Shown piece by piece: positions 7,892 to 43,785 of a stretch of 47,363 nt of DNA. Each line of letters begins with the position of its first letter. The stretch's first letter is position 1. The stretch is from positions 1 through 47,363 of the forward strand of contig JACPCF010000015.1 of assembly GCA_016179965.1 (NCBI GenBank), written 5' to 3'. The position numbers and the translations under genes were made by a program. The DNA is from Candidatus Rokuibacteriota bacterium (GTDB taxonomy: Bacteria > Methylomirabilota > Methylomirabilia > Rokubacteriales > CSP1-6). Below the pieces are notes generated by a model. The model searched no databases. It saw nothing but the letters and a program-made list of their open reading frames with translations, and was not told the origin of the DNA.

Positions 7892-8680
7892 ATGCCGCGC
7901 CTCGCCGTCAACAACGTCGGAATGCACTATGTGGAGTCGGGGCAGGGGAGCGCGCTCCTCCTGCTCCACGGCGTGGGCGGCTCCCACGAGATGTGGCTGC
8001 CCATCGTGCCCGAGCTGGCCAAGTCCCGCCGGGTCATCACGGCGGATCACCGCGGCCACGGCGCCTCGGACAAGCCCCGGGGGTCATACACGATCTCCCT
8101 CTTCTGCCAGGACTGGCTTGCGCTCATGGACGCCCTCAAGGTGGACCGCGCGCACCTGGTCGGCCTCTCCATGGGCGGGGCGATCGCGATGCGGTTGGCC
8201 TTGGAACATCCCCAGCGCGTGAGGTCGCAGGTGCTGGTGGACACGTGGGCCTTTCCCCACCCGGACTTCCTGGCGCTGCTCCGCAAGCGCCTGGAGCGGC
8301 TGGCCTCGGGGGACCTGGCGGCCTACGCCGATGAGGCCATTCCCCAGGTCTATTCACCGGCCTTCATCGCCGCGAACCCTCAGGCCATGGCCGATTACCG
8401 CGCGCGGGTGGCGACGCTCAACCCGGACTCCATCCGCGCCGCCGTGGATGCCTGCATCACCCACGACATGCGCGGGAGGCAGGCGGAGATCAAGGTGCCG
8501 ACCCTGGTGGTCGTCGGCAGCGAGGACCGGCTGACCCCCCCCTACCACTCCGAATACTTGGCGCGGACGATCCCCAACGCCCAGCTTGTGGTCATCCGGG
8601 GGAGCGGTCACATTCCCCACCTGGAAAAGCCCTGGGAGTTCCTCAAGGTGATGGCTGACTTTACCGCCTCAAGTTCGTGA
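7892..8680 (+). CDS. Alpha/beta hydrolase
   Basis: Cytosolic alpha/beta-fold hydrolase of 262 residues. The oxyanion segment LLLHGVGGS is near residues 23-31, the nucleophile is Ser93 in GLSMGG, the acid is probably the Asp in VGSEDRLTPP, and the histidine lies in GSGHIPHLEKP. The sequence resembles 3-oxoadipate enol-lactonase and related carboxylesterases, but the substrate is not determinable. It starts 4 bases after the propeller gene and is the last gene before a strong promoter on the same strand. Confidence 0.85.
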   Translation: MPRLAVNNVGMHYVESGQGSALLLLHGVGGSHEMWLPIVPELAKSRRVITADHRGHGASDKPRGSYTISLFCQDWLALMDALKVDRAHLVGLSMGGAIAMRLALEHPQRVRSQVLVDTWAFPHPDFLALLRKRLERLASGDLAAYADEAIPQVYSPAFIAANPQAMADYRARVATLNPDSIRAAVDACITHDMRGRQAEIKVPTLVVVGSEDRLTPPYHSEYLARTIPNAQLVVIRGSGHIPHLEKPWEFLKVMADFTASSS

Positions 8681-8708
8681 AATAAATAACATTCTCCCTA
8701 AGAAAATC

Positions 8709-8738
8709 TTGACAGGGTGGCGCAGGGGGCAGTAGGGT
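8709..8738 (+). promoter_or_regulatory. Sigma-70-type promoter for the RRM gene leader
   Basis: A perfect TTGACA (8709-8714) is followed 18 bases later by TAGGGT (8733-8738). Directly upstream is an unusually AT-rich stretch (8680-8708, including AAATAAATAA), which in this GC-rich window looks like an UP element. The expected start is near 8744-8746, immediately before the first leader hairpin. Confidence 0.6.
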
Positions 8739-8744
8739 TAGTCA

Positions 8745-8905
8745 ACGCGCAAAGGGTTCGGACCTTTGCGGCATTCTGGGGAGTGCCCTCAAAGACCGCG
8801 ACTCTTTGAGGGCTTTTTTGCAGCAGGGGGTGAAAGCCCCCCACCGCCGCCTGTGAGCCGAGGCGGAGTTCCGGACTCGGTCCTGTTCGCGGCACGGAGG
8901 ATCTG
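8745..8905 (+). ncRNA. Structured leader RNA with early terminator (candidate sRNA or attenuator)
   Basis: From the predicted start the RNA folds a perfect 8-bp hairpin (8748-8770, CGCAAAGG/CCTTTGCG, 7-base loop). It then forms a perfect 10-bp intrinsic terminator (8785-8819). Two further hairpins follow: GGGGG/CCCCC (8826-8841) and CCGCCT/AGGCGG (8847-8866). GGAGG at 8896-8900 precedes the ATG. The 3' arm of hairpin 1 (CTTTG) could alternatively pair with CAAAG in the 5' arm of the terminator, offering an antitermination switch. Products would be a short RNA of about 75 bases or a read-through mRNA. Function is inferred. Confidence 0.55.
8785..8819 (+). terminator. Intrinsic terminator inside the RRM gene leader
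   Basis: GCCCTCAAAG, a 9-base loop, CTTTGAGGGC, then TTTTTT: a perfect 10-bp stem with a U-tract. It lies between the promoter at 8709 and the RRM start codon at 8906, so it would stop most transcripts unless it is antiterminated. Confidence 0.8.
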
Positions 8906-9238
8906 ATGCCCGCAAAGTTGTTTATCGGTAACCTTTCCTTCCAGGCCACGGAAGAGGATCTCCGCGAGCTCTTCCAGCAGGCGGGAACCGTGGAGTCGGT
9001 CAGGATCGTGACCGACCAGTTCACGGGCAGGCCGCGCGGCTTCGGCTTCGTGGAGATGTCCACGAAGGAGGAAGCCACCAAGGCGATCGAGATGCTGAAC
9101 GGCCGGCTCTTCCGGGACCGCAACCTCGTCGTGGATGAGGCGCGGCCCCAGCCACAGCGCGGGAGCGGCGGTCCGCGGGGCGATCGGGGTCCCCGAGGCC
9201 CCGGCCCCGGCGGCGGCGGAGGCGGCTGGCGGCGCTAG
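8906..9238 (+). CDS. RRM-type RNA-binding protein with Gly-rich tail
   Basis: A 110-residue protein with one RNA recognition motif: RNP2 LFIGNL (about residues 5-10) and RNP1 RGFGFVEM (about 44-51). It ends in an Arg/Gly-rich tail (RGDRGPRGPGPGGGGGG). This is the size and layout of cyanobacterial Rbp and other bacterial glycine-rich RRM proteins, several of which are cold-induced RNA chaperones. The start follows GGAGG by 5 bases. It is monocistronic between a leader terminator and a strong downstream terminator. The long structured leader suggests post-initiation control, which is inference. Confidence 0.9.
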   Translation: MPAKLFIGNLSFQATEEDLRELFQQAGTVESVRIVTDQFTGRPRGFGFVEMSTKEEATKAIEMLNGRLFRDRNLVVDEARPQPQRGSGGPRGDRGPRGPGPGGGGGGWRR

Positions 9239-9247
9239 CGGTCTAGA

Positions 9248-9277
9248 CCCGGAGGGCGCCTGCCCTCCGGGTTTTTT
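9248..9277 (+). terminator. Intrinsic terminator after the RRM gene
   Basis: CCCGGAGGGC, a 4-base loop GCCT, GCCCTCCGGG, then TTTTTT: a perfect 10-bp stem plus U-tract, 9 bases after the RRM stop codon. Confidence 0.9.
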
Positions 9278-42700: not shown

Positions 42701-43764
42701 CGGAGATCCTCGAGCTCCTCCTCCGGAAGCAGGAGGATCTCGCGCGGGTGGAGGATCCCGCGCGGATCGGGCGCTACTACTTCCAGCTGGGCCGGGTTTA
42801 CAGCTTCCTCGGCGACCACGAGCGGGCGGCCCGATGCGCCCAGCAAGCCATCGAGGAGGCCAAGCGCTCCGGCGATGAAGCCACCATCGGAAAGGCTTAT
42901 TTTCTGCTGTCGCTGGAAGGGATCTTCTCGGGTCAGGCGCTTCAGGGGATCGAGCACGGCCGACACGCAGTGGCGCTCCTCGAGCGGACGGACGAGCCCT
43001 GGTGGGTTGGGTCCGCCCTGTGGGTGGTGGGCCTCAATCATTCTCAGGTGGGGGAGTTTGAATCAGCCTTGGAGGCCCAGGCCCGGGCCCAGGCTATCGG
43101 AGAAGCCATCAGTGATGCTCGCCTCCAGTCGCTGACGGAGTGGGGGAAGGGGATCGTCCGCGCGGCGATGGGGGAGTGGGACACGGGGATCCAGGCGTGT
43201 CGGCTAGCCCTGGACCGCGCTCCCGACCCGCTTCACACGGCCCTCGCGTCGGGTTGGCTCGGTTACGCGTATCTGGAGAAGGGGGACGCGGCCCAGGCCA
43301 TCTCGCTGCTGGAGGCGGCCGTCGCGCAGTTCGGTCAGTACGAGTTCCGGCCGCTCGAAGGCTGGTTCACCATCTTTCTGGCCGAAGCCTACCTCCTGAA
43401 GGGCGACGTTGACATGGCGCGCGCCCGCGCTCTGAACGGGCTCGATCTCACCCGGCACGCGAAGTTTCGGTACGGGACCGGCTGGGCCCAGCGGGCCCTC
43501 GGCCGGATCGCCAGGGTGGGCGGGGCGCTGTCGGAAGCCGAGCGCCATTTGAAGGAGGCCCTCGCAACCTTCGACTCGATTCAGGCTCGCTACGATGTGG
43601 GACGCACCCACCTGGACTTGGCCGCCCTCGCCCACGCCCAGGGGAACCGCGAGGCGGCCGCCGCTCACCTTGACGAGGCGCGTCAGGTGTTCGCCGCCCT
43701 CAGGATCCCCACGTACCTCGAGCGAGCCTCCCAGCCCCTTGACAGCCCGAATCGGGTCGGCTAG
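39706..43764 (+). CDS. Sigma-54 AAA+ activator fused to HTH, degenerate cyclase, AAA and TPR domains
   Basis: A 1352-residue multidomain regulator. Residues 1-245 form a sigma-54 activator AAA+ domain: Walker A GETGTGKG (41-48), sigma-54 contact loop GAFTDA (88-93, canonical GAFTGA) and Walker [10 protein letters not shown] (107-115). A Fis-type HTH follows at about 275-317 ([20 protein letters not shown]). Residues about 355-525 resemble a class III cyclase ([33 protein letters not shown]), but the metal Asp positions are lost. A second P-loop GEAGIGKS starts near 569, with [12 protein letters not shown] near 694. TPR-like repeats fill about 930-1352. There is no receiver or PAS domain. Likely a DNA-binding transcription factor whose ATPase is controlled by the STAND-like part; target genes are unknown. 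Confidence 0.85.
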
Positions 43765-43785
43765 GGTTGGGATCGCTCACCAACC
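43765..43785 (+). terminator. Weak hairpin after the regulator gene
   Basis: GGTTGG, a 9-base loop, CCAACC, directly after the regulator stop codon and 20 bases before the ribosome-binding site of the molybdenum hydroxylase operon. There is no U-tract, so termination is uncertain. Confidence 0.3.

Follow-up and report, generated by a model that had tools for sequence, protein, structure and literature searches.

The stretch of DNA analysed here, referred to below as the window, comprises 47,363 nt from a Candidatus Rokuibacteriota bacterium, a dweller of soil or groundwater. It carries a gene for a protein of the eukaryote-like RRM type of RNA-binding protein, whose product matches the Pfam RRM_1 model (E 1.5e-25) and is represented by a close orthologue in some 50 of the family's 57 genomes. 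A terminator follows straight after the gene, which therefore looks like a monocistronic unit. Ahead of it, sequence and folding place on the forward strand, in this order, a promoter, two hairpins (H1 and H2), an intrinsic terminator (T) and its run of six U residues, the end of which lies 86 nt before the RRM start codon (Table 1).

Table 1. Features at and around the RRM leader of the window
Feature	Position	Strand	Description
Hydrolase gene	7892-8680	+	Upstream neighbour of the RRM gene
Conserved box	8674-8694		TTCGTGAAATAAATAACATTC, just 5' of the -35 box
Promoter	8709-8738	+	TTGACA (8709-8714), 18-nt spacer, TAGGGT (8733-8738)
Transcription start	8744-8746	+	Expected
H1	8748-8770	+	CGCAAAGG/CCTTTGCG, 8 bp, 7-nt loop, -11.6 kcal/mol (fold)
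H2	8770-8787	+	GGCATTC/GAGTGCC, 7 bp, -8.6 kcal/mol (step-by-step folding)
T stem-loop	8785-8813	+	11 bp, -17.1 kcal/mol; probable attenuator of the RRM gene
U6 tract	8814-8819	+	Expected 3' end of a short RNA of about 75 nt
Second leader element	8846-8900	+	GCCGC/GCGGC (8846-8850/8889-8893) enclosing CCGAG/CTCGG (8858-8862/8876-8880)
Ribosome-binding site	8896-8900	+	GGAGG
RRM gene	8906-9238	+	110 aa, one RRM domain and a Gly/Arg-rich tail
Terminator after RRM gene	9245-9273	+	13-bp stem
Promoter-like site	43739-43767		TTGACA-N16-18-TAnnnT form

The promoter had been called strong in a sequence-only reading of this DNA, a description that suits its perfect -35 box, which is retained in relatives, but not its -10 box, which has three of the six consensus bases and causes a simple promoter scan to miss it. 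The sole other site of this general form in the window also has TAGGGT as its -10 box, and this sequence may hence be usable as a -10 element in the host genome. The box just upstream of the -35 element overlaps the stop codon of the preceding gene, and a similar form (GTGAAA..AACATTC) is conserved in genomes of the family both with and without T; it is probably a regulator site. Many family genomes that do not carry T (L021-L024, L028-L033, L040-L054) have a different promoter form upstream of the RRM gene, TTGACATGCGTCACCYSCTGTCA, overlapped by an inverted TGACA..TGTCA that looks like an operator.

The 8-bp hairpin that had been noted ahead of the terminator is present exactly at its place, and the terminator itself likewise, although its stem has 11 bp and not the 10 first counted. 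H2, which the earlier reading had not listed, shares three nucleotides (8785-8787) with the foot of T; in step-by-step folding H1 forms first, H2 second and T last, capturing those three foot bases from H2. The folding stability of the whole 197-nt leader is not unusual (z -1.24). Shuffled windows would be expected to contain the T pattern 0.09 times. The window is very poor in strong intrinsic terminators, with two on both strands together, T and the terminator at 9245-9273, and these flank the RRM gene. Other transcription units of the window may rely on Rho.

Twelve genomes of the class, from five families, have this layout ahead of an RRM gene, as does one deltaproteobacterial genome. The 12 comprise six of the window's own family (G000, G001, G002, G018, G021, G022), one from each of two other families of the order (G037, G038), three of family f7 (G047, G088, G089) and one of family f8 (G048). 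A model built on H1, H2 and T strongly matches only the first eight of these, in each case before the RRM gene, and its weaker matches include G089 and G047, likewise before the RRM gene; further weak matches (L073-L075, L077-L080, L082-L084, L089-L091) have no RRM gene nearby and were set aside as chance terminators. An exact scan for the stem followed by a T-run over about 85,000 species genomes returned at least 116 loci, and among the matches listed three directly precede an RRM gene: those in G037, in G088 and in the deltaproteobacterium (G095, locus L171). The last is the one RRM-adjacent match outside the phylum among those listed and is suggestive rather than conclusive, but its layout is complete: TTGACT-N17-TATGAT, a CAAAG..CTTTG hairpin, T, 28 nt and the ATG. 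Within the phylum of that genome this T stem occurs in 1 of 59 RRM leaders, namely its own. A search of plasmids gave no match.

Within the window's own family T is found in only six of about 50 genomes, and most RRM leaders are without it; the attenuator must hence be dispensable. On a rough RRM gene tree, which has low support in places, every outgroup carries T, and inside the family it occurs at two positions, a distribution that looks like that of an ancestral element lost several times. Other RRM paralogues of the class have a different terminator or none. Promoter-terminator leaders with different stems are also seen at other RRM genes (L289, L290, L311). A recurring stem of another kind, around GCCGCGAGGAC, is shared by paralogues at L289, L290, L263, L251, L274, L276 and L281, lying 27-29 nt before the RRM start at L289 and L290 and 126-138 nt upstream at L276 and L281. 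At L278 and L280 the RRM gene seems to be preceded by the end of a cold-shock-like gene.

In the covariation analysis that the earlier reading had proposed, 98.6% of the cells are paired across the 13 T stems, six pairs are invariant and the loop is variable, and double changes are seen at two pairs, an inner A-U becoming G-C and an outer G-C becoming C-G or A-U; H1 has two pairs with compensatory changes in G038. Across T leaders the stem CCYUCAAAG/CUUUGRGG hardly varies, and UCAAAG is constant in 13 of 13. This constancy exceeds what base pairing demands, and termination alone does not explain the letters of the stem. The exact palindrome CTCAAAG..CTTTGAG occurs in 8 of the 13 genomes tested, always ahead of the RRM gene, with one extra match in G018 that falls within coding sequence. 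The U tract is imperfect in G022, G018, G038 and G048, and weak in G038 (GTTGTTG).

Between the window and G018, H1, H2 and T together differ at 1 of 66 positions, as against 19 of 41 fourfold sites of the RRM gene (Fisher p 7e-9), 11 of 18 positions of the promoter spacer and 32 of 84 in the later half of the leader, and G022 and G021 agree (p 2e-4 and 3e-3). In comparison with the distant G038, T differs at 3 of 26 positions and fourfold sites at 27 of 38 (p 2e-6). Judged by these substitution counts, H1, H2 and T (against G018) and T (against G038) are under purifying selection. In G001 and G002, which belong to the window's own genus, 10-13 of the 66 positions differ, level with fourfold sites, and H1 is degraded. 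We note that H1 is identical in G018 and G021 and thus unchanged in a more distant genome, yet decayed in these two of the same genus, in one of which (G002) H2 is intact. H2 is also kept in G038, with an altered loop, and is not evident in G037. In families f7 and f8, H1 is absent in the form it has in the window.

We suggest that the leader is probably a cis-acting transcription attenuator of the RRM gene. In all 13 genomes an intrinsic terminator stands between promoter and gene on the same strand, the arrangement by which an attenuator is recognised. In G037, G038, G047, G088, G089, G048 and G095 the distance from T to the ATG is 28-45 nt, which leaves no room for another promoter, and at the f7, f8 and G095 loci the neighbouring upstream gene is divergent, so that T cannot be the terminator of that gene. 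Taken together, this anatomy argues that T is a premature terminator and that the RRM protein can be made only by reading through it. The window by itself would permit another view, with T terminating the co-directional hydrolase gene, which ends 105 nt before it, and the RRM promoter lying downstream of T. We hold this to be very improbable: the promoter seen here lies between the hydrolase gene and T, outside the family the interval from T to the ATG is as short as described, and the neighbour differs between genomes, its divergence in several of them contradicting such a role. The attenuator architecture and RRM link proposed in the sequence-only reading are conserved in relatives, and no other role is obvious for a terminator placed and oriented as T is.

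Under the attenuator hypothesis RNA polymerase would start near 8745, make H1 and H2, and at T either terminate, releasing a transcript of some 75 nt, or read through into the RRM gene. We infer that the read-through fraction is regulated, as we infer termination itself. The regulator would most likely be the RRM protein, since the element occurs in a single copy and goes with one gene only, which encodes an RNA-binding protein, and the regulator would bind the H1-H2-T hairpins or the constant CCUCAAAG/CUUUGAGG arms. A high level of the protein would then bring more termination, a negative feedback whose direction is presumed. Such autoregulation is plausible given the genomic association. A more specific proposal, which we offer only tentatively and regard as doubtful, is that the arms are the RRM binding site in an old autoregulated attenuator and that the 75-nt RNA also titrates the protein. 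Were that true, its occurrence in a deltaproteobacterium would imply that attenuator and RRM gene as a pair either predate the phyla or moved between them.

It is also conceivable that the signal sensed by the leader is temperature, or a metabolite or protein other than the RRM protein. The cyanobacterial RRM protein Rbp1 is reported to be needed for cold adaptability (PMC9333190), and the upstream arm of a terminator hairpin can be a target of NusA (PMC2965389). We consider this somewhat unlikely, since the element occurs once per genome before a single gene, unlike a general signal, and no Rfam riboswitch or thermometer scores above threshold. Indeed, the whole window yields no riboswitch, thermometer or sRNA family at the gathering score, nor do the f7 and f8 loci, which agrees with the initial impression that no known riboswitch was to be recognised; the best sub-threshold match, to PreQ1-III, lies on the minus strand with 23.7 of 63 bits. 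A leader-peptide attenuator was rejected because inspection of the aligned leaders by eye revealed no short ORF that is conserved and has a ribosome-binding site at the right distance.

A different emphasis would make the short H1-H2-T RNA the main product, acting in trans as an sRNA or as a titrator of the RRM protein, with the RRM mRNA arising from occasional read-through. In favour of this, G018, G021 and G022 keep the loops nearly as unchanged as the stems (1-3 of 66 positions differ), which is beyond the needs of an attenuator, and the Bacteroides RRM protein RbpB binds many sRNAs (PMC11697453). Across families, however, only the sequence of the T stem and the layout are kept, while the loops, H1 and H2 change, and in the genomes tested the element is not found apart from the RRM gene; we therefore think it rather unlikely. 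Under the attenuator reading the RNA is in any case a necessary by-product of termination at T.

How an antiterminated state might form is a separate matter. It had been proposed that CTTTG in the 3' arm of H1 pairs with CAAAG in the 5' arm of T. The complementarity exists, but the pairing is not supported: it amounts to 5 bp, is no better than in shuffles and is lost in G001 and G002. Pairing between leader and T exceeded that of dinucleotide shuffles in no genome, no alternative fold better than CTTTG:CAAAG was found, and the overlap of H2 with the base of T is limited to 3 nt. Pairing of the H1 3' arm with CCGCAAAG at the RRM start was rejected and not counted, because the GCAAAG at the start codon also occurs in genomes that have no T and reflects Ala-Lys codons.

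The second leader element, directly 5' of the ribosome-binding site, is an insert of the window's family between T and the RRM gene and is conserved also in genomes without T; its outer stem, GCCGC/GCGGC, is invariant and for that reason offers no proof by covariation. The family has perhaps moved from transcriptional control at T to translational control at this element.

The nearest named kind of RNA is the Chlorobi-RRM motif (RF01697), which owes its name to an association with RRM genes and is a candidate cis-regulatory RNA of Chlorobi (PMC2864571). We would make the distinction between the two: that motif belongs to another phylum, and in none of the 13 genomes is the leader matched by its model, no score reaching the gathering score of 45 bits and the best being 17.6 bits elsewhere in G022. 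In Bacillus subtilis, operons of RNA-binding proteins are enriched for attenuators, and rimP-leader, rpsL-leader and others likewise place a premature terminator before the gene of an RNA-binding protein that probably regulates itself (PMC2965389); they differ from the present leader in their proteins and RNA motifs, and the binding partner here is putative. RbpB of Bacteroides thetaiotaomicron, a bacterial RRM-1 protein, has an RbpB site in its own mRNA, suggesting autoregulation, but it comes from another phylum, and the available excerpts of that paper mention no terminator attenuator of rbpB (PMC11697453). A literature search, outside which most subscription journals lay, found no paper on this leader in Methylomirabilota or Rokubacteria.

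RNA-binding proteins of the RRM type rank among the most common in eukaryotes. To our knowledge, few targets of the bacterial ones are known. A leader whose conservation alongside one RRM gene extends to the individual letters of its terminator stem is a ready candidate target RNA, and one that offers a simple read-through assay. It also suggests an RRM gene family that has been shifting between transcriptional control, exerted at T, and perhaps translational control, exerted immediately before the gene.
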